This document shows positions 6,228-20,064 of a stretch of 64,000 nt of DNA, in pieces (position 1 is the first letter of the stretch; each line of letters opens with the position of its first letter). The notes below the pieces were generated by a model. That model made no database searches and was not told the origin of the DNA. It saw only the letters and a list, made by a program, of their open reading frames with translations. Both the position numbers and the translations under genes were made by a program. This DNA comes from Pseudobdellovibrionaceae bacterium. GTDB lineage: Bacteria; Bdellovibrionota; Bdellovibrionia; Bdellovibrionales; Bdellovibrionaceae. Location: positions 62,001-126,000 of the forward strand of contig JAHBUS010000005.1 in NCBI GenBank assembly GCA_019637955.1. Reading direction: 5' to 3'.

Positions 6228-9097
6228 AAACCATCCACCTCTGGGGAGTCAAACAGAACAACCTCAAAAACATCGAGGTTGAAATTCCCCTGGGGTCGAT
6301 GACGGTGGTCTGCGGACCCTCCGGTTCCGGAAAATCCTCGCTCGCTTTCGAGACCCTCTTCGCCGAAGGGCAACGTTTGTTCATCGAAAGCATGAGCAAC
6401 TACGCCCGCCAATTTTTAAACAAAGCACCCAAACCCGACATTGAGGGCGTGAACAACATCCCGCCCGCCATTTCGATCGAACAAAAGAATTCGGTGAAGA
6501 GTTCGCGTTCAACCGTGGGTACCACCACCGAGATCATCGATTATTTGCGCCTGCTCTACGAAAAAATCGGTGAGCCTTATTGCCCCACCCACAAAGTGAA
6601 GTGCGAAAAGCAAAGCGTGACCGAGGCGACCGACCGGGTGATCGAAAAATTTGGCGGTCAGCGTGGTTACGTCCTGACGGAAATCACCGCCGACGGGCGC
6701 GTGGCTGAGGGCAAAAAGCTCCATTCGCTTTTGTTGCAGGACGGATATCTGCGCGCTTATATTTTTGGCAAAAAAAAGGACGCCGCCCCTCAAGTCATTG
6801 AATTGAGCGACAAGGCCGTGATCAAAAAAGGCCTTCCCAAAGAGAGCTTTTACCTGGTGATCGACCGGATGGCTTTTGAAGCCACCGAGCAAGGCCGCCT
6901 GGCCGACTCCCTCACGCAGGCGTACAACGCCAGCATCAAGTACAACCAAAATCTCGTCACCCGCCAAGCCGTGGTCGTGAACACCAACCATGAGCGGATG
7001 AATCTGAGCGAAGAAAGCTCGTGCCCCGTTTGCGGCTACACGCCGCCGCCGATCAGTTCGCGCCTGTTCAGTTTCAATAGCCCCATGGGCGCGTGCCAAA
7101 CTTGCAAAGGCTTCGGCAATATTCTGACCCTCGACGAACAAAAGGTGATTCCCAATCCGGGTTTGAGCATCAAGGGCGGGGCGCTGAATCCGTTCGAGAT
7201 GCCCTCGGCGGCTTCGGATAAAAAGCAGCTCGAGGCGTTCTGTAAAAAACAAAAGATTCCGCTCGACCGGCCCTGGAAAGATCTGACCGGCGAGCAGCGC
7301 GATATGATTTGGAACGGCACCAAAGACTTCTTCGGTGTCAAAGGCCTGTTCGAGTATCTCGAGCAAATCAAATACAAGATGCACGTGCGCGTGTTCATTT
7401 CGCGGTACCGTTCGCCGTTTACGTGCCCCGATTGCAAAGGCTCACGTCTACGTCGTGAGGCGAACGCCGTCTTCATCAAAGGTCTTTCGATCCAAGAACT
7501 TTCGGCGATGACGATCGAGCGCCTGACCCACACATTCGAAAATATCAACCTCTCCCCCTACCAAATCGAAGTGTCCGGAGAGGTGCTCAAGCAGGTTCGC
7601 GCTCGTCTGTCCTATTTGATGCGCGTGGGAGTGCACTACCTGACGCTCGACCGCGAAACGCGCACGCTTTCGGGCGGCGAGTATCAACGGATCATGCTCT
7701 CCAATCAGCTCGGCATGGGCCTGTCGCAAGCCCTCTACGTTTTGGATGAACCGACCGTGGGCCTGCACCCCCGCGACAACGACCGGTTGATCTCGATTTT
7801 GAAGGACATCAAAGACCTCGGAAATACCATGGTGATCGTCGAGCACGATCACGACGTGATTAAGAATTCGGACAATATTATCGAGATGGGACCGGGCTCG
7901 GGGTCATTCGGCGGCGAGGTCGTCTTTTCGGGCCCGACCGAAGACTTCTACAACGACACCAAGTCGGTGACGGTTCCTTACCTGAAACCGCAAAAGAACT
8001 GGGCGCCGCTCAGAATCGTGCGGCCGGTGGACGTCGAAACTTACAAATACAAAATCAAGCTGACCGGATGCAGTGGCAACAACTTAAAGAATCTGGATGT
8101 GACGATTCCGCTCAACCGGCTGGTTGCCATCACCGGCGTCAGCGGTTCGGGCAAGTCAACGCTCGTCACCCGCACGCTGTACCCGGCTCTCGCGCGCGCC
8201 CTTGAAATCGAGTACCTTCCGGCTTCGACCTACGAGACCATCGAAGGAACCGAAAATTTGAAGAACGTGCTCTTGATCGATCAGTCCTCGATTGGAAAAT
8301 CGGCGCGCAGCTCACCCATCACTTACCTCAAAGCCTTCGATGCGATTCGATCTTTGATGGCCTCGATCCCTGAAGCGAAATTCCGCGGCTACACCCCGGG
8401 GACTTTCTCGCTCAACGTCGACGGCGGCCGCTGCCCGGCGTGCAAAGGAACCGGCTTCGAAGAGATCGACATGATGTTCATGGATAACGTGATCATCCCC
8501 TGCGACGTTTGCGACGGCAAAAAGTACCGCGATGAAATCCTCGAGATTCAGTACAAGGGTAAAAACATTTCCGAAATTTTGGCCATGACCGTCAGTGATG
8601 CGATGAATTTCTTCGTCGCGCACCCCAATATTCGCAAGCCCTTGTCGGTTCTCAAAGAGGTGGGGCTGGATTACCTTCAGCTCGGCCAACCGGCGGGAAC
8701 CCTTTCGGGCGGTGAGTCTCAGCGCTTGAAGATCGCAAAAGAACTCTCGCAGGTGACGCAAAAATCCACGCTCTACATTCTGGATGAGCCCACGACGGGC
8801 CTGCATTTCCGGGAAGTCGAGCTTTTGATGAAAGTCTTAAATAAGCTGATCGAGGCCGGCGGATCGGTCGTCGTGGTTGAACACAACCAAGACGTGATTC
8901 GCGGCGCCGACTACGTGATCGATTTGGGGCCCGAAGCGGGCGATAAAGGCGGTCGACTGGTCGCAACAGGGAGCCCGGAAGAGGTGATGAAGAACAAAAA
9001 ATCACTGACGGGGCAGTACCTGAAGCGATACATTGAGTCGATGAATTCCGTACCGCCGACCCCCACTCGAGAGCGCAATGCTACCGCCCGAAATTAA
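6224..9097 (+). CDS. uvrA: Excinuclease ABC subunit A
   Basis: DNA-damage recognition ATPase of nucleotide excision repair; works as a dimer that loads UvrB. 957 residues, close to the usual 940. Two ABC modules are visible: Walker [10 protein letters not shown] (about 32) and GVSGSGKST (about 640), signatures LSGGEYQR and LSGGESQR, and Walker [12 protein letters not shown] and [11 protein letters not shown]. Zinc sites show as [10 protein letters not shown]...CQTCKG in the first half and [11 protein letters not shown]...CDVCDGKKY in the second. ATG at 6224 overlaps the PBP1A stop. Coupling of uvrA to a PBP and an exporter is unusual but the identity is certain. Confidence 0.98.
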
Positions 9098-10802
9098 GCG
9101 CATTATTCTTGAGCTCAAACCCCATAAAAAACGTCTGACGATCGTCGCGATCGCGGGCGTTTTAATGGCTTTGGTCGACACGGCGAGCGTCAATCTGCTC
9201 AAGCCAATCTTCGATGGGTTGCAAACCGGCAAGATCGCCCTGATGAAGGACACCTTCGCCTGGATCATCGCGCTTGCCTTCCTCAAGGGGATTTTTCGCT
9301 ACATCCATCTTTTCAACATGAACTACACGGCGGAGCTCGTCGCCCAAGGTTTGCGCGAGAAACTGCAAATGAAGTTCATGCGCTTGAACCTGTCGTTCCA
9401 TAACAACTATGCCGCGGGCTCGGGCGGGCTGATTAGCCGCATTTTGAATGACATCGTCGTGATCTTCCACGGGCTTCGAATGTACGCCGACTTTTTCCGT
9501 GAGCCGGTGCTTTTCATCGGCCTCATGGGCACGCTGTTTTATTTGAATTGGAAGCTGACGATTTCGATTTTGGTTTTGCTGCCGTTGATTTTGCTTTTCT
9601 TGCGCTGGCTCTCAAAAAGCATCAAAAAGTACAGCCTTACCGGTCAAGAGGACCTCGAAAAAATCACCTCAACGATCAAAGAAAGCCTGGACGGCGTTCG
9701 CATCATCCAGTCGTTCAATCTCGAGAACGAAATGGCCCAGCGCTTTCACAATCAGTCTCAGGATTTTCTCCATTCGCGCAAAAGCATCCACCGCCTGATC
9801 GAAGCCTCGGGCCCCGTCACCGAATTCACCATGACCCTGGTGACGTTCGGCATTTTGTTTTACATGACCCTCGAGATCTCGGCGGGACGAGCAACCTACG
9901 GGGATTTCATGAGCTACATCGCCGCGCTGCTGATGCTGAGCACGCCGGTGAAGAAGATGCAGGAATCCTACGTGCGCACTCAGGAGACCACCGTCTCGGC
10001 CGCACGCGTGTTCGTCCTTTTGGACGATCAGAGCGAGGTCCCGCAAACCACGACTCCCGTCCCCTTCCCCTCTGATTGGAAGAAAATCGAGTTCAGGGAT
10101 GTGTCTTTTCAGTATGGCGAACACAAAGTTCTGAACGGCGTGAATCTCACGGTAAATCGGGGCGAACTCATCGCGTTCGTCGGTGCCAGCGGCTCGGGGA
10201 AATCGACCCTGGTCAACCTGCTCGAACGGTTCTTTGATCCCACCCAGGGCGAAATTCTGATTGATGGCATTTCGATTCAAAACTTTGGCCTCAAGGATCT
10301 GCGCAGCCATATCGCCTTGGTCACCCAGGACGTTTTTCTCTTTAGCGACACCATCGAGCGCAATATCTGGGCGGGCGACTTCGGCAAAGACAACTCACGC
10401 GTCGAACTCGTGGCCAAGAACGCCAATGCCGACACCTTTATCCGCCGCATGGTCAAAGCGTACCAAAGCCGCGTCGGCGACCGGGGCAACCTGCTCTCGG
10501 GCGGCGAAAAGCAGCGTGTTTCGATCGCGCGTGCCTTCTTTAAGGACGCTCCGATCTTGATCCTTGATGAAGCCACCAGCGCGCTCGACTCCGAAAGCGA
10601 GATCGAAGTTCAGCGCGGTCTTGACCGCCTCATGGAGGGCCGCACGGCCTTCGTCATCGCCCACCGACTCTCGACCGTGGCCAAAGCCGACCGCATTTAT
10701 GTGCTGCGCGCTGGCCAGGTGGTCGAATCAGGCACGCACGCCGAGCTCCTGTCGAAACAAGGCGAGTACTCCAAACTGCACTCTCTGCAGTTCAATGTGT
10801 AA
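9078..10802 (+). CDS. msbA: MsbA-like ABC exporter (lipid A/lipid flippase family)
   Basis: Half-transporter of 574 residues with an N-terminal six-helix membrane domain (about 20-300) and a C-terminal nucleotide-binding domain. Visible are Walker [22 protein letters not shown]-loop VTQDVFLFSDT, signature LLSGGEKQRVSIARA, Walker B ILILDEATSALDSESE and the H-loop AHRLSTV. Length and domain order match MsbA (582 residues in E. coli), which flips lipid A-core across the inner membrane, but other homodimeric exporters look similar, so the substrate is inferred. The first 20 bp overlap the end of uvrA. Tandem palindromic repeats begin at its stop codon. Confidence 0.8.
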   Translation: MLPPEIKRIILELKPHKKRLTIVAIAGVLMALVDTASVNLLKPIFDGLQTGKIALMKDTFAWIIALAFLKGIFRYIHLFNMNYTAELVAQGLREKLQMKFMRLNLSFHNNYAAGSGGLISRILNDIVVIFHGLRMYADFFREPVLFIGLMGTLFYLNWKLTISILVLLPLILLFLRWLSKSIKKYSLTGQEDLEKITSTIKESLDGVRIIQSFNLENEMAQRFHNQSQDFLHSRKSIHRLIEASGPVTEFTMTLVTFGILFYMTLEISAGRATYGDFMSYIAALLMLSTPVKKMQESYVRTQETTVSAARVFVLLDDQSEVPQTTTPVPFPSDWKKIEFRDVSFQYGEHKVLNGVNLTVNRGELIAFVGASGSGKSTLVNLLERFFDPTQGEILIDGISIQNFGLKDLRSHIALVTQDVFLFSDTIERNIWAGDFGKDNSRVELVAKNANADTFIRRMVKAYQSRVGDRGNLLSGGEKQRVSIARAFFKDAPILILDEATSALDSESEIEVQRGLDRLMEGRTAFVIAHRLSTVAKADRIYVLRAGQVVESGTHAELLSKQGEYSKLHSLQFNV

Positions 10803-12583: not shown

Positions 12584-12620
12584 TAGAGAGAGGCGCCAAC
12601 GGCGCCACGGGAAACAGTAA

Positions 12621-12660
12621 AAAGAAAGACCACCCCTCCAGGTGGTCTTTCTTTTTTTCT
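12621..12660 (+). terminator. Intrinsic terminator after the sigma-54 activator
   Basis: A 14-bp perfect stem AAAGAAAGACCACC / GGTGGTCTTTCTTT with a 6-base loop and a T run. The 12584-12818 gap also holds GGCGCCAACGGCGCC (palindromic, just after the stop codon) and ATGTGG-6-CCACAT (12702-12719), and no promoter that I can recognise. Confidence 0.9.
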
Positions 12661-12818
12661 TGTTTGTCTTCAATCCCCACATCCTTCAAACCCCCGAAAT
12701 CATGTGGAAACGCCCACATTTGAGCTGGCCGGTGACAAAGCACGGCACCGCGATTGCCTTAAGGGCTTATGAACGCGGCCACGTGAAGGGGCCGTCCACC
12801 GAAGGAGTGGGATTTAAT

Positions 12819-13646
12819 ATGATCAATGACATCATGAAATCGACATCAGTCGAACGTTTACAGGGGATTTTGCAAAGCCGTTATGGGAAGGGTTTGGAGT
12901 TGAGTTTTTTGAACGACTCCGATGATGTCATTGCCACCGAAGCCAATGCGTTTGCTCTCAAAAACGGAACGCTTCATATCCCGATCACTTCGCACGGACG
13001 ATTCCTTGCCGTGGCCAAAGTTCCGGACGCCTCGGCCTTGCCGCGCAGTTCGGCCGAAGCCATCACCGAGGTGGTTAAAATGATCTTGGAGCCAGCGATT
13101 TATAACTGGTACCTCGATCAAACGGAAACGAACCGCGAAACGGGCGTTTTCAACCACCTCGGCGATCTTCATTCGGTTCAAGACGACGAGCTTTGGCTTG
13201 AAACCAATGGCGAACGCGCGCCGGTCGTTCTTTTGGTTTCGCACAATCCACACCGCTTGCCCCGCTTGGCTTTACAAGTTCATGAAGTGATGAACCGCTG
13301 GGCGTTCGTTCACTGGAACGAAGTGCGCGCGCAAATTTTCGGCGTCCAGGACATCCGGGAGCTCGGCGCGATGACCATCTTCATCGAAGATGCGCTGACT
13401 TTATCGAGCGACGAAAAATTTCTGCTCAATGAGTGGATTCAGACTTCCAAAGCCGAAAACGAGCCTGCGATCATCATCGGATCGTCAATGGGCTGGTCGG
13501 ACTTGAAGGCCAAAGACATTCTGCCCTCGTTTTTGCTCGAAGAAGCCGGCTTTCACCAGATCGAAGCCGACCGTCTTCCGGCCGACCGACGTTTCTGCGA
13601 AGAGGCGATTAAACTCCTCCTCGACAAAGAATCCGCCCTTCAATAA
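12819..13646 (+). CDS. Degenerate relative of sigma-54 activators (no Walker A, no GAFTGA loop)
   Basis: 275 residues. ATG at 12819 with AAGGAG 11 bp upstream is the likely start; the frame is open back into the terminator but that part cannot be real coding sequence. Residues 1-100 look like a GAF/PocR-type sensor (LHIPITSHGRFLAVAKV, then a helix ending ILEPAIYNWYL). From about 130 the order of elements mimics an AAA+ domain: APVVLLVSHNPHRLP where Walker A should be, GAMTIFIEDALTLSSDEKFL like Walker B plus its following helix, EPAIIIGSS like sensor I, and DILPSFLLEEAGFHQIEADRLPADRR like the final RLN...LPPLRER box. No HTH is present. Probably a non-catalytic regulator or antagonist; function is inferred. 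Confidence 0.6.
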   Translation: MINDIMKSTSVERLQGILQSRYGKGLELSFLNDSDDVIATEANAFALKNGTLHIPITSHGRFLAVAKVPDASALPRSSAEAITEVVKMILEPAIYNWYLDQTETNRETGVFNHLGDLHSVQDDELWLETNGERAPVVLLVSHNPHRLPRLALQVHEVMNRWAFVHWNEVRAQIFGVQDIRELGAMTIFIEDALTLSSDEKFLLNEWIQTSKAENEPAIIIGSSMGWSDLKAKDILPSFLLEEAGFHQIEADRLPADRRFCEEAIKLLLDKESALQ

Positions 13647-13686: not shown

Positions 13687-14697
13687 ATGGATCCGAAGAT
13701 TGGCGCCTTCCTCGAAGGTCATTTCAAAGATAACAATTCTCGCGTCCTCGCTTTGGCGGGGGACGCTTCCAGCCGTAAATACTACCGGGTGATCCGGGAC
13801 CAAGATTCTTGGGTCCTGATGTTCTGGGAACCTTTCGACAAAGACAAATATCCGTTCTTGTCGGTTCTGAACCACTTCGCCAAAAACGGCGTTCACGTTC
13901 CCCAAGTTGTTCATTACAGCGAAGCCGATGGCCTTGTCTTGCTTGAGGACCTGGGTGACCTGACTCTCGAGAGAAAGTTCTGGGAAAATCAGAACCAAGA
14001 AATGGCGCTTCGTTATTACCGCATGGCGATCGACGAGCTGGTGAAAATCCACTTCCACAGCACACGCGACCGCTCTCCCTGCACGGCTTTCGATATCGAG
14101 TTCGACACCGAAAAGCTTCTTTGGGAAATGAAATACGGTTTCGACAATTTGATTTTGGGCGTGTGTCAGTTCGAAATGAGCCCGGCAGCCAAAGATCAGA
14201 TGATTGAACTTTTCCGCGGACTTTGCGACATCATTTCTAGCGAACCAAAATTCATCGCCCACCGCGACTACCACTCGCGCAACTTGATGATCAAACTCGA
14301 CACCATGCGAGTGATTGACTTTCAAGACGCGCGCATGGGAGCCATGCAATACGATTTGGTCAGCTTGCTTCGCGATTCCTACGTCAATATGTCCGACAGC
14401 ATGGCGCAGGCGCTTCTCGAGGACTACCTGATCAAAGGCAAAGAGTTTCTACCGAAGAGTTTCTCACGTGAGCATTTCGATTACATTTACGAACTGCAGA
14501 CGATCCAGCGCTGCTTTAAAGCTTGCGGCAGTTTCGCCAGCTTCTACAATCAACGCAAAGACACCCGCTACCTCAAGTACCTCTCGCACACTCTGCGCCG
14601 GGTCTTGAAGAGCGTGACGGAGTTCCCGCAGTACAAAGCTTTTGCCGATGTGCTTATTGATTCGGGATCTCTGGAGCGGAAATACGAAGTTCTATGA
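13687..14697 (+). CDS. amgK: AmgK-like cell-wall amino-sugar kinase (APH fold)
   Basis: 336 residues of the aminoglycoside-phosphotransferase fold. The catalytic loop HRDYHSRNLMI (about residues 192-202) and the metal-binding DFQDARMG shortly after are intact. AmgK phosphorylates the anomeric position of MurNAc and GlcNAc in the recycling pathway that bypasses de novo UDP-MurNAc synthesis. The assignment rests on the neighbour: it overlaps a MurU-like nucleotidyltransferase by 4 bp, the arrangement known from Pseudomonas, and anmK lies next door. ATG at 13687 gives the usual length. An alternative is another small-molecule kinase of the same fold. Confidence 0.78.
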   Translation: MDPKIGAFLEGHFKDNNSRVLALAGDASSRKYYRVIRDQDSWVLMFWEPFDKDKYPFLSVLNHFAKNGVHVPQVVHYSEADGLVLLEDLGDLTLERKFWENQNQEMALRYYRMAIDELVKIHFHSTRDRSPCTAFDIEFDTEKLLWEMKYGFDNLILGVCQFEMSPAAKDQMIELFRGLCDIISSEPKFIAHRDYHSRNLMIKLDTMRVIDFQDARMGAMQYDLVSLLRDSYVNMSDSMAQALLEDYLIKGKEFLPKSFSREHFDYIYELQTIQRCFKACGSFASFYNQRKDTRYLKYLSHTLRRVLKSVTEFPQYKAFADVLIDSGSLERKYEVL

Positions 14698-15545
14698 AAG
14701 CCATGATTCTGGCGGCCGGCGAAGGGACGCGGCTGAGACCTTACACCCTGTCGCTCCCAAAACCGGCGATTCCCTTTTTGGGAGTTCCCTTGGCCTTTTA
14801 TGGCATCGAACTGCTCAAAGAAGTCGGTGCGACCGATCTCGTTGTCAACCACCACCATCTTTCGGGCGAAATTCAGAAACTCTTCGCGGGGCGAAGCGTG
14901 GAATTCTCGGACGAGTCGGCAGGCCTTCTTGGTAGCGGCGGCGGCATTCACAAGGCCAAACCCTATCTTCAAAATGAAACTGACTTTTTCGTTCTCAATG
15001 GTGACGAGGTCATTCTGCCCGAGCGCCAAGGACAGCTTCGCGCGGCCCTCGAGCATCACCGGAGCGCCGGCAACCTCATGACGATTTGCGTGAAAGAGCA
15101 TCCTGATGTCGGCACCAAGTTTGGCGGCGTTTGGACGGACGCGCAAAACCAGGTCGTCAAATTTTCAAAGACTCCCGTCGAGGGACTGAAGGGCTGGCAC
15201 TACACCGGAATTCTGGTCTTTTCGAATCGCATTTTTTCTTACTTTAAAAATTCACTCGTCGAAGAGAACATTCTCTACGAAACGGCGGCTTTGGCGATGT
15301 CCAAGGGTGAGAAGGTCTCGGCTTTTCCGATCGATTGCCAGTGGTTTGAGACCGGAAATCCCGCCGATTTCAAAGCGGCCACCGAAGAGTGTCTTGAGGC
15401 CCTTCAGCAGCCGGGCCGCCAGGGCTGGGTGCAGTGGCTTTCGCAATTCTTGTCTTCGCAAAATCCCCGCGAAGCCTTGGTCGAAAAAGAAGACCTGCTT
15501 CTCAACAAAAAGCTTTTGTCTTTTTGGTCCAAACTGAAGCCTTAG
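14694..15545 (+). CDS. murU: MurU-like sugar-1-phosphate nucleotidyltransferase
   Basis: 283 residues with the nucleotidyltransferase signature LAAGEGTRLRPYTLSLPKP at residues 6-24 and a second active-site segment FVLNGDEV. MurU converts MurNAc-1-phosphate and UTP to UDP-MurNAc. It is coupled to amgK by a 4-bp overlap, which is the main support for this substrate; sequence alone also fits mannose-1-phosphate or other NDP-sugar enzymes. It is about 60 residues longer than Pseudomonas MurU, with a C-terminal extension after about residue 225. The stop codon TAG overlaps the convergent anmK stop. Confidence 0.7.
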   Translation: MKAMILAAGEGTRLRPYTLSLPKPAIPFLGVPLAFYGIELLKEVGATDLVVNHHHLSGEIQKLFAGRSVEFSDESAGLLGSGGGIHKAKPYLQNETDFFVLNGDEVILPERQGQLRAALEHHRSAGNLMTICVKEHPDVGTKFGGVWTDAQNQVVKFSKTPVEGLKGWHYTGILVFSNRIFSYFKNSLVEENILYETAALAMSKGEKVSAFPIDCQWFETGNPADFKAATEECLEALQQPGRQGWVQWLSQFLSSQNPREALVEKEDLLLNKKLLSFWSKLKP

Positions 15546-16657
15546 GCCTGAGTGATCTGACCTAGAAGCAGCGGTCTTTTCGCGCCGGTGGTTCGCGCGT
15601 GATCAATTTTAAGGTCCCAAGCGCGGGCGGCCGCGAGAACGGCAAAGGCGGCGCCTTCGATCGCTTGGGGCGGCCAACCTTTTTGCGCCGACGTAAAAAT
15701 CTGAATTTGCGGAAGATGCGATTTGATTCTCTCGAGCAGATACGAATTTTGAGAACCGCCGCCGCAGAAAATGATCTCGGTCGGCGCCTGAGCTCCCATT
15801 TCAAGATACTCGCGCGCGATGGATTGAGCGACGATCTCGGTCAACGTGGCCAGCGCATCCTCGGGCTTTAGACGCGGGTGTTTCGCGAGAAGGCCCTTCA
15901 GCCACGTCTCTCCGAACTCTTCGCGTCCGCAAGACTTGGGTGCCGCCTTCTTGTAAAACGGATGCTTCAATCCTTTTTGCAAAAGCCCAATGTTGATGAA
16001 TCCCTTGCGGGCCGTTGAACCATCACGGTCGAACTTCTTTTTACCTTTGGTTTTTTTCTGAATGTAAACGTCCATCGGCATATTGGCGGGGCCGGTGTCA
16101 TAGCCCATGACAAGCTGATGACCTTGTAACAACGAGAGATTGCTGATGCCGCCCAAATTGTGGACCGAGATGCCGAGCCCCGCTTTGCCAAACGCCACCT
16201 GGTGAAAGTACGGGGCCAAGGGAGCACCCTCGCCGCCCGCCACGATGTCGGCGGGACGGAAGTTTGAAACAACGGGCACCGAGAATTTTTGCGCCAAAAA
16301 TGAAGGCTCACCGATTTGCAGGGTGGCATGACCGCCGCGGTGGTAGACGGTTTGTCCATGCAAACCGATCAAATCGACGCGGGTGTCATTCTTGGCCAGC
16401 TTCGTCAGCGCATCCGCATAGAACTTGCCGAGCTTGAAGTGAAGTTCGGTGAGGCGGTCCACTTTCAACTGATGCGCGGCCGCGAGCGCGAGTTCTTTCC
16501 GTAAGGCTGACGGGAAAGGAGCCGACGCTTGCTTTTCGAAGCTGGCTTGCAAACCTTCGGAAGTTCGGCGGATCCGGGTCCAGACAAAGTCCACGCCGTC
16601 CAGACTGGTTCCGCTCATGATGCCGATCGCACGGATTTCTGTCTTCTCAAAAAGCAT
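15542..16657 (-). CDS. anmK: Anhydro-N-acetylmuramic acid kinase
   Basis: Cytoplasmic enzyme that hydrolyses and phosphorylates 1,6-anhydro-MurNAc to MurNAc-6-phosphate during murein recycling. 371 residues, as expected. Visible motifs are GIMSGTSLDGVD near the N terminus, the LIGLHGQTVYH region, NLGGISNLSLL and MGYDTGPANMPMDV, and IFCGGGSQNSYL near residue 290. A GGAGGG ribosome site lies upstream of ATG at 16657. It faces murU tail to tail with a 4-bp overlap of stop codons. Together with amgK, murU and nagZ it supplies the recycling route; a MupP-like phosphatase that should link AnmK to AmgK is not in this window. Confidence 0.95.
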   Translation of the reverse strand: MLFEKTEIRAIGIMSGTSLDGVDFVWTRIRRTSEGLQASFEKQASAPFPSALRKELALAAAHQLKVDRLTELHFKLGKFYADALTKLAKNDTRVDLIGLHGQTVYHRGGHATLQIGEPSFLAQKFSVPVVSNFRPADIVAGGEGAPLAPYFHQVAFGKAGLGISVHNLGGISNLSLLQGHQLVMGYDTGPANMPMDVYIQKKTKGKKKFDRDGSTARKGFINIGLLQKGLKHPFYKKAAPKSCGREEFGETWLKGLLAKHPRLKPEDALATLTEIVAQSIAREYLEMGAQAPTEIIFCGGGSQNSYLLERIKSHLPQIQIFTSAQKGWPPQAIEGAAFAVLAAARAWDLKIDHARTTGAKRPLLLGQITQA

Positions 16658-17841: not shown

Positions 17842-20064
17842 CTACATTCCCGGAGGCATATTTTTGATGCGGCCTGAGTTTCCGGCGCCGCCGATCTCTT
17901 GCTCGTCGACGAGGAACTGCTCGTCCATCAACTTCACGGAGTACCCCGCGCGGCCGCCCGCCATGCAGTTGCCAGGCACCGCTTTGTCGACGTCTTCAGG
18001 TGAACCGGAGATAATCGCCGCGTCTGGGCAGTTGCCGAAACGCTCCTCATCCATCACATAATCTCCAGGAACCTTGGTGTGCCAGTTCGTGAGGAGCTCA
18101 ACAAAGGCTTTCGCCGGATCTTTTCCGCGTCCGGCGACATAGGTGAGAGCTTCGTTGTAATCAAGAGTGTTGTCGGCCAGGGCACGCGCCATCTGATCTT
18201 TGACGGAAAAGGTGTTCCACGGAGCGGACGCATCTTTGCGGTAGCCCAAATCTCCCCGCACGTGAAGTCCCGAGAAGTCCGAGCGTTTTTGAATCCGCTG
18301 TGCGTAGGTCCGCCACCAATAAGGCTCGATTGAGTAGTTGGCGACATCGAAGTTATCGGGAATGATCGCGCCAATTTCGACGTCGCGCTGCCCAGGCGGA
18401 CTGCCATTGTTCCACGCCAGAATATCGCCATGATTGTCGGGCGCACTGATATCTGAATTTCCACCGAGCAAGTGCGTGAACCAAGAGAAACTCATGAGCG
18501 GCCGATGGGCCGGACCGTTTTTCATGAAGATCGCCTTGTGCATATGACCCATGGTCATCGTGGACTTCACGCCGATGGTGTCGCCCACGTACCTCGAATG
18601 GTCCACCCGCAAGAAGTCGTCATTGGCATTGACGGTGCCTTCGCCGGGGCTCGCGCGCGGCGGCAGGGTTTTGTCGATCTGGTCCTCACGTCCCCCCACC
18701 GATTTCGGAGAACTTTGCGGCCAAGATTTGTAAAACCAAGGTCCAATTTTTCCGCCAAACGGTTTGGCGTAAGCGGTCGCCTTAAGCGTGACACCGCCGA
18801 AAGGTGAGAACGGAATTTTGGGTCTCGTCGTCGCGCTGGTCTTGACGTAAGCCATGCACCACGGATTTTTTTCGTAACCGATGGTGGTGTGAAACATCCG
18901 CGCCTGAGGCGTGTCGATATTCACGGGATCTTGAACGTAGCTTTGAATGAATTGAACCAGCTCGGGCGCCAGCCGATCCCGGTAATTTGGCAAACCATCT
19001 TGCCCGGTGGCGTTCATAATTTTAATTCGGAATTCGACGGCATCTCCACCCTCACCGCGGCAATAACCGTCGAGATAGGCGTAGAGCGGTTTCACGAACA
19101 TTTCCTGCAACCAGGCGGGCGGCGTTCCGTCATCGTCTTTTTGGCCGCCGCAGCCACCCGCGGCCAAGCTGTTGAAGAATTCGAAAGATCCTCCGTTGCC
19201 CGTGCCCGTCGTGGGATCGATGCTCGCCTGATTTTGGTACGTGAGATTTTTCCAGAACGTATTCAGCGCCCCCGTGCGCGCCGACTCCCCGTCCAGATCT
19301 TTAAAGTCCTTCTCATCGTAGCTGATGCTATTGGCGAGCTTGTTCATCACCCGCTTGCGATTGGCGACGTCATTTTTAAAGGCAAAAATATACCGGCCCA
19401 ACGCGTACCAGTTGAGCGCCGATCGATCCTCGCAACTTCGGGTGACCCGCTCATTCGCCAATTGCGAGATCGCGTCGACCGCGGACGTCACACCCGGTAA
19501 GGTTGCCGAGAGAAGACCCGCGAGCAAGCTGGATCCGAATGGCTGACCGGGCAGCGTGATCCGAAGGCCCGAACACATGTCGTTGCAATAATCCTCACGG
19601 TAATTCGGCGTGGAGTTCATGATTTCCCACGCCGAATAATTGATGCAGAAGCTCGCGGGGCAACGGTATTCGGAATCCGTGTTCGCGCTCGCGCGTAAGG
19701 TGTCGTTTTGGGTGTTAAAGGGGGCGTCTTGAGAACGGTTTCCGGCCATCCCGATGCCACGGTAGCGGTAGGCCATGAGTTTCCATGACTGACGGATCTG
19801 ATAGTTGACGTGGGAAAGCGCGTTCATCACTTCGGCCTGTTTCATGGCACCGTAGTAAGCCGCCAAGTCCACCGAGTTTTGCAGATTGATCTTGTGGTGA
19901 ACGAGCAAGCCCACATTGACGACCATCGCGAAGAAAATAAAAAGGACCTGAAAGATCAGGGCCGCGAAGATCGCGATCTGGCCTTTTCCGCCGACTTCAT
20001 TTCGGCCAAATGGCGCACGGAAAAGTGCCAAGATTTTCAGGGCAAGAATTCGAATCCAGTTCAT
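17842..20064 (-). CDS. TadG/TadE-like membrane-anchored exported protein
   Basis: 740 residues. The N terminus has GGKGQIAIFAALIFQVLFIFFAMVVNVGLLVHHKINLQNSVDLAAY: a short cytoplasmic lead, one membrane segment (about 30-55) and the alternating helix typical of TadE/TadG pseudopilin-like proteins of Tad/Flp systems. The remaining 680 residues are extracytoplasmic, aromatic- and Gly-rich, with many Cys in the first half (such as YRCPASFC and YCNDMCSG), suggesting disulfides. The start ATG at 20064 has no strong ribosome site. The closely spaced next gene is also exported. No tadA, rcpA or flp gene is adjacent; a separate TadB/TadC-like pair occurs at 47961-49123. Confidence 0.72.
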   Translation of the reverse strand: MNWIRILALKILALFRAPFGRNEVGGKGQIAIFAALIFQVLFIFFAMVVNVGLLVHHKINLQNSVDLAAYYGAMKQAEVMNALSHVNYQIRQSWKLMAYRYRGIGMAGNRSQDAPFNTQNDTLRASANTDSEYRCPASFCINYSAWEIMNSTPNYREDYCNDMCSGLRITLPGQPFGSSLLAGLLSATLPGVTSAVDAISQLANERVTRSCEDRSALNWYALGRYIFAFKNDVANRKRVMNKLANSISYDEKDFKDLDGESARTGALNTFWKNLTYQNQASIDPTTGTGNGGSFEFFNSLAAGGCGGQKDDDGTPPAWLQEMFVKPLYAYLDGYCRGEGGDAVEFRIKIMNATGQDGLPNYRDRLAPELVQFIQSYVQDPVNIDTPQARMFHTTIGYEKNPWCMAYVKTSATTRPKIPFSPFGGVTLKATAYAKPFGGKIGPWFYKSWPQSSPKSVGGREDQIDKTLPPRASPGEGTVNANDDFLRVDHSRYVGDTIGVKSTMTMGHMHKAIFMKNGPAHRPLMSFSWFTHLLGGNSDISAPDNHGDILAWNNGSPPGQRDVEIGAIIPDNFDVANYSIEPYWWRTYAQRIQKRSDFSGLHVRGDLGYRKDASAPWNTFSVKDQMARALADNTLDYNEALTYVAGRGKDPAKAFVELLTNWHTKVPGDYVMDEERFGNCPDAAIISGSPEDVDKAVPGNCMAGGRAGYSVKLMDEQFLVDEQEIGGAGNSGRIKNMPPGM

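Follow-up and report, generated by a model that had tools for sequence, protein, structure and literature searches.

A stripped copy of a sigma-54 activator appears to be encoded next to the activator itself in the Pseudobdellovibrionaceae genome studied here. The window, that is, the whole stretch of DNA analysed, has 64,000 nucleotides, and the features around the copy, called X, are collected in Table 1. X would be a duplicate of the adjacent activator (enhancer-binding protein, bEBP) that has been stripped of the ATP site, the sigma-54-contacting loop, the lid and the DNA-binding domain, and that retains a small sensor domain and a bare AAA+ core. Judged by its promoter sequence, the X gene would be the first of a sigma-54-controlled operon X-amgK-murU. 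Homology to bEBPs, a series of duplication and loss, a sigma-54-type promoter, a conserved gene neighbourhood and purifying selection were established by computation. As a whole, we read X as a pseudo-activator under sigma-54 control that may exert negative feedback in trans on the adjacent bEBP, with a link to murein-sugar salvage; this reading is held with slightly less than even confidence. The preliminary description of the locus, a degenerate sigma-54 activator-like protein adjoining a full activator, is backed by profile, fold, gene neighbourhood and intermediates. It did not mention the sigma-54-type promoter, the amgK-murU genes of the operon or the relatives of X with lid and HTH.

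Table 1. Features of the X locus, in window positions.
Feature	Position	Strand	Basis
Complete sigma-54 activator (bEBP, P0002), 521 aa	11018..12583	+	domain matches, 32 orthologues
bEBP parts: PocR/GAF-like N-terminal domain; AAA+ with Walker A GENGTGKE and GSFTGA; lid; Fis-type HTH			
Intrinsic terminator 3' of the bEBP gene	12619..12656	+	16-bp stem plus T run
Sigma-54-type -24/-12 element CGGCACcgcgaTTGCC (GG-N10-GC)	12743..12758	+	60 bp before the X ATG
X, pseudo-bEBP, 275 aa	12819..13646	+	ORF call, orthologues, profile, AlphaFold, Foldseek, motif columns
X residues 1-108: compact GAF/PocR-like sensor-type domain, long end helix 76-108	12819..13142	+	AlphaFold; Foldseek GAF matches
X residues 136-269: degenerate AAA+ alpha/beta core	13224..13625	+	AlphaFold, family alignment
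X core elements: beta1; alpha1 (H155, R160-W161); Walker B-like strand 186-191; sensor I-like strand 217-222; beta5 (D251-R252-x-P254)			
AmgK-like MurNAc/GlcNAc kinase (APH fold)	13687..14697	+	NCBIfam AmgK best, E 3e-36, below equivalog cut-off
MurU-like MurNAc-1-P uridylyltransferase	14694..15545	+	NCBIfam MurU best, E 4.9e-29, below equivalog cut-off
AnmK-like anhydro-MurNAc kinase, convergent	15542..16657	-	Pfam AnmK 1.6e-97; adjoins the cluster in some relatives

Is X a real protein, and to which fold does it belong? The open reading frame is real, and its ATG is backed by orthologues that align from residue 1. The X protein of the window (P0001), taken alone, has no match in Pfam or NCBIfam. 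The profile Sigma54_activ_2 (PF14532) is matched by 20 of the 39 X family members (best 8.7e-8), and the resemblance to bEBPs is therefore homology and not chance. In a profile search of the PDB with X, NtrC1 came out on top, though weakly (E 0.048), the match covering the part from Walker B to sensor I. The AlphaFold model (mean pLDDT 87; residues 112-130 are the only segment below 50) consists of a small alpha/beta N-terminal domain followed by an AAA+-like core at 136-268. Its best Foldseek matches in the PDB are NtrC1 (3e-4) and DmpR (7e-4), with GAF domains lower in the list. Structure prediction had been proposed as a check that might return a fold unrelated to AAA+; the model is instead closest to NtrC1. 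Profile and predicted model together give X the AAA+ alpha/beta fold of the sigma-54-activator type.

The motif order claimed for X was recovered. FIED occupies residues 188-191, in a Walker B-like stretch that reads IFIED, and it is followed by the sensor I-like IIGSS at about 219-223 and by LPADRR at 253-258. The parts claimed to be missing are missing throughout: neither the P-loop (0/39) nor GAFTGA (0/39) occurs in any X family member, and in the alignment with bEBPs the L1 (GAFTGA) loop is absent and X stops where the bEBP lid starts, with no lid and no HTH. For the acidic pair of Walker B the picture is mixed: among the 39 members, 22 have E190 and 21 have D191, and P, S, N or L takes their place elsewhere. 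As for the arginine finger, there is no conserved Arg in X columns 235-247, the FREDLYYRL segment, among the 39 aligned members. The most conserved positions are H155 (39/39) and T186 (37/39), and R160-W161, P216, S222 and D251-R252-x-P254 are also frequent. Compared with NtrC-family bEBPs (NtrC1, PspF; PF00158/PF14532), X thus has in common the order of the AAA+ alpha/beta core, the Walker B-like and sensor I-like strands, an H..R at the alpha1-beta2 turn and an N-terminal sensor-type domain, but Walker A, GAFTGA, the arginine finger, the lid and the HTH are all missing from it. Kinship of the N-terminal domains of X and the bEBP is suggestive: their secondary structures come in the same order and are lined up by MAFFT. 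The N-terminal domain of X was not accepted as a direct relative of that of the bEBP, hhalign giving 15 columns at a probability of 12%.

The neighbouring bEBP has a mean column identity of 81% over 32 orthologues spanning an order, and its full-length relatives come mostly from Bdellovibrionota. It had been called a PocR activator. This name is loose, since only the N-terminal domain is PocR-like: PF10114 is matched by 28 of the 32 orthologues (best 1e-5), and the window's own copy stays below the cut-off. In the AlphaFold model of the bEBP the AAA+ part has a pLDDT near 40, owing to an alignment that is too uniform, and was left out of the comparison. RpoN is encoded in the window's genome. 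The gene neighbourhood, proposed as a further check, proved to be conserved, with the order UvrA-(MsbA)-bEBP-X-AmgK-MurU kept in most of 40 loci. Profile matches make AmgK and MurU the likeliest names for the two genes 3' of X, and in nearly all relatives, too, X is followed by amgK; AmgK, MurU and AnmK are members of the MurNAc salvage pathway. Across the 40 loci, identity is about 20-36% for X and 70-85% for the bEBP, a difference in rate that counts against the feedback reading. Nearly all genomes of the window's family carry X, as does most of its order, and by these alignments X appears to be a fast-evolving yet fixed member of the cluster. Outside the order, what the X profile matches weakly is either the AAA+ domain of an ordinary bEBP or a D-type protein; D is described below.

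Where did X come from? The bEBP has an orthologue of 60-63% identity in sister families, and the next gene there encodes a protein of about 300-390 aa, called D here, with no amgK beside it. D has no GAFTGA and retains the lid and a Fis-type HTH. Its Walker A is intact in some lineages (GEMGTGKK, GEVGTGKK, GERGVGKK, GARGVGKE) and damaged in others (GEKGCAKE), and its recognition helix is almost the same as in the bEBP (NKSK..RELGISRSGLIQKVEKY in D versus NKSKLAKELGISRAGLIMKVEKY in the bEBP). The preliminary description had counted an intact Walker A in orthologues against its proposal. Such a motif occurs only in these distant D-type positional homologues and never in X, which fits an EBP-derived ancestor of X and is no refutation. 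A further form is found in the window's order at L201 (positions 8278-9570, genome G040), where the protein encoded directly before amgK-murU begins with an X-type N-terminus, continues with an AAA+ core that lacks Walker A, and ends in lid and HTH (Pfam AAA_lid_14 6e-8, HTH_8 2e-6). The X profile matches it at 2e-37 with nearly the whole model covered, and in hhalign X is closer to D (E 4e-9) than to the bEBP (2.5e-4). In a maximum-likelihood tree of lid plus HTH, D and the L201 protein form one clade (100/96), and the bEBP stands beside it, apart from other bEBPs (96/94). X has no lid or HTH and was left out of this tree, to which it is linked by the profile matches with L201 and with D. The simplest history would be a tandem duplication of the bEBP, followed by loss of the sigma-54 loop and then by loss of Walker A, lid and HTH toward X.

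Loss of the sigma-54-contacting loop is known elsewhere. The loop is deleted, as in X, in NtrC of Caulobacter and R. capsulatus and in VspR/VpsR of V. cholerae (PMC10274813). In these GAFTGA-less bEBPs the HTH is retained, and the promoters they regulate are of the sigma-70 type; D is similar to such proteins, X is not. Short bEBP-like proteins of about 290-300 aa were also noticed elsewhere in same-family genomes: L187 5205-6074 (G006), L188 4854-5753 (G005) and L189 4196-5137 (G013). They have P-loop, lid and HTH and no GAFTGA, and are probably a separate GAFTGA-less regulator.

Is X under sigma-54 control? Sites were scored in the 200 bp before X with our own weight matrix made from the known consensus, and a site with a score of at least 8 is present in 31 of the 39 loci. 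Among the controls, this score was reached by none of the per-locus shuffle means, by 4 loci on the reverse complement, by 2 in X coding sequence, by 0 in bEBP coding sequence and by 4 upstream of amgK. Scores upstream of X exceed those of the controls with a Wilcoxon p of 5e-7 or lower, values that are made too optimistic by the relatedness of the genomes. The site recurs at similar distances in strongly diverged intergenic DNA, and it is retained at loci where X lies apart from the bEBP (L201, L194, L040). No sigma-70-type promoter was found before X by scan. The transcript of the bEBP is predicted to end at the terminator that follows it, and inverted repeats stand at the same place in many relatives. 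Before D genes, sigma-54-type sites are found in 9 of 9 cases, with scores of 12.9-17.5, at 12-67 bp before the start positions used. D seems to be monocistronic, with a convergent gene directly 3' in four loci, so that the sigma-54 promoter there serves the pseudo-activator alone. In L202, L203, L204 and L207, the gene convergent to D and directly after its stop encodes a small protein that is PilZ-like by eye. At L219 (3467-4381, G218), the X gene is reversed relative to the bEBP and amgK, and no good sigma-54 site was seen before X at the position tested.

Which activator, then, serves the X promoter? Inverted-repeat, k-mer and dyad searches before X and D yielded no general conserved enhancer (bEBP-binding) motif, and so the choice of the bEBP is an assumption. 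What the searches returned were terminators and the sigma-54 element, with TTCTTA-N4-TAAGAA in one D subgroup only. A dyad ATGTGG-N6-CCACAT at window position 12702 was considered as an enhancer and rejected, as it is not conserved.

Titration or modulation of the neighbouring bEBP by X is the best available explanation that we can infer from these sequences. The adjacent bEBP would activate the X promoter, and X would bind the bEBP through its AAA+ core, its sensor domain or both and damp it, giving negative feedback. Damping is expected because X is predicted to have no ATP hydrolysis, no arginine finger and no sigma-54 contact. As a ring subunit or a cap without ATP site, arginine finger and L1 loop, it would poison the bEBP ring; in the case of D, the HTH inherited from the parent would add competition for the bEBP enhancer. 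The sensor domain may tune the feedback to some signal, for instance a muropeptide or a sugar, and AmgK and MurU would salvage MurNAc alongside.

There is a precedent for such a circuit in the phage shock system, where PspF drives the operon that encodes PspA and is itself inhibited by PspA, with contact at the PspF W56 loop (PMC3791423). The top conserved stretch of X, H155-x4-R160-W161, may be the equivalent of this place. In both cases a sigma-54 operon would encode a trans regulator of its own activator, the promoter of X being known by sequence only. PspA is a coiled-coil protein and not an AAA+ relative; the predicted model of X is not a coiled coil. In Pseudomonas syringae, bEBPs are likewise controlled in trans by a small partner, HrpV, and the pair HrpR and HrpS forms mixed complexes (PMC4145663). 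Unlike X, HrpR and HrpS both work as bEBPs, and HrpV is not described as a bEBP relative (PMC4145663). A broader version of our reading is that an order-wide circuit exists in which the bEBP switches on a dead, DNA-blind copy of itself as a brake, with the sensor domain tying it to murein-sugar salvage, and in which D and the L201 protein are surviving intermediates that record the loss of each part. Both points of this version are more tentative, and we would put them only as possible.

What would be new in this? In the open-access literature we found no published description of X or its bEBP, and no description of a bEBP paralogue without ATP, sigma-54 and DNA contacts. Interaction between paralogues, HTH-less bEBPs and GAFTGA-less bEBPs are already known. 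The combination appears to be new: a bEBP copy with no recognizable working motif, spread over an order, behind a sigma-54-type promoter. Few mixed bEBP complexes have been described. In the relatives, the steps by which an activator became a dead paralogue can still be followed, and because they are preserved, the effect of a dead AAA+ copy on its live parent can be tested with purified proteins. What is more, predators of the Bdellovibrio group feed on the cell walls of their prey, and the highly conserved, apparently undescribed bEBP is a candidate controller of cell-wall-sugar salvage in this group.

Is X necessarily a brake? Sequence does not fix the sign of its effect, and a brake is only the probable one. 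One alternative is that X is a co-activator subunit that forms a mixed ring with the bEBP and changes how active it is or which promoters it selects, on the model of FleT with FleQ or HrpR with HrpS. In Rhodobacter (Cereibacter) sphaeroides, an HTH-less bEBP paralogue is likewise encoded in a sigma-54 operon, with fleT under the control of the first bEBP (PMC7277832, PMC3162934), as X would be. FleQ with sigma-54 activates the operon containing fleT, and FleT then joins FleQ in a hetero-complex (PMC7277832); FleT has no sensor and DNA-binding domains (PMC3162934), and the layout of the X gene resembles the fleT/fleQ arrangement. A second parallel is offered by LAP1 and LULL1, the Torsin activators, AAA+-like proteins without nucleotide motifs that pair with an active AAA+ protein, LAP1 activating Torsin in a mixed ring (PMC4358337). 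Both precedents show that help can also come from a paralogue or from an AAA+ partner that is itself dead. However, FleT is a bEBP with its activator domain and acts as a positive partner, whereas X does not retain the sigma-54-interaction domain, has no working motifs and keeps a sensor-type domain. LAP1 and LULL1 are eukaryotic, belong to an unrelated pathway and supply an arginine finger; LAP1 acts via this conserved finger, and X has no conserved arginine there. Since GAFTGA, the ATP site and the FREDLYYRL arginines are all missing, X is without the assets of a co-activator, and we regard this alternative as unlikely.

Another alternative is that X acts on its operon partners, as a sensor-scaffold for the activity of AmgK and/or MurU or for the flux of MurNAc-phosphate and UDP-MurNAc. 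The presence and position of X go with amgK more than with the bEBP, a pattern that counts against the feedback reading and that an enzyme-directed role would account for too. In G040, G018 and G030, mostly drafts, X stays upstream of amgK with the bEBP elsewhere (L201, L194, L040), and G126 has, on another contig, an extra X (L209 3202-4170) followed by an extra amgK, with no bEBP alongside. Four genomes (G011, G016, G150, G200), few and mostly drafts, keep the bEBP and lack both X and a close AmgK. These few genomes, together with the X proteins that consist of the N-terminal domain alone and with the negative outcome of the enhancer searches, leave room for a role on AmgK/MurU. On the other hand, G042 has X beside the bEBP and amgK on another contig, and D, which has a bEBP-like HTH, stands alone behind its sigma-54-type promoter with no amgK nearby, so that the original role was regulatory. 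We consider an action on the enzymes rather improbable. The status of G039 as X-less is uncertain, with AmgK at a contig edge, and G210 was dropped from the genomes without X, as it has a truncated X at a contig end (L213). In L040 (G030), about 5.6 kb of extra sequence lies between the bEBP and X, and the X-amgK-murU unit and its promoter are intact.

Less probable again, and in our judgement doubtful, is that X is a stand-alone sensor in which the ligand-binding front was kept and the AAA+ remnant is a mere scaffold. In two cases (family f2), L214 3111-3548 (G037) and G045:C30:167877-168266, X is the sensor-type domain alone, of 145 aa, upstream of amgK, and this domain has GAF-like structural matches. 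The AAA+ core is thus not always needed, which also counts against the feedback on the bEBP. But in L217 and L218 it is the N-terminal part that is shortened, with the AAA+ core retained, and the core holds the most conserved residues of X.

In close pairs of X genes, dN is 0.003-0.03 where dS is 0.2-1.0, with dN/dS well below 0.1; X is under purifying selection, and such low dN relative to dS argues that the gene is not decaying. That X has an unrelated fold with a chance resemblance to bEBPs, or is a decaying pseudogene, is hardly credible, although the window's X alone has no database match: the Sigma54_activ_2 matches, the NtrC1 fold match and the low dN/dS rule it out, and X is conserved across the order. 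Elsewhere in the window, positions 17842-20064 (- strand) encode a 740-aa protein whose N-terminus is TadE/TadG-like (pilus assembly) by eye.
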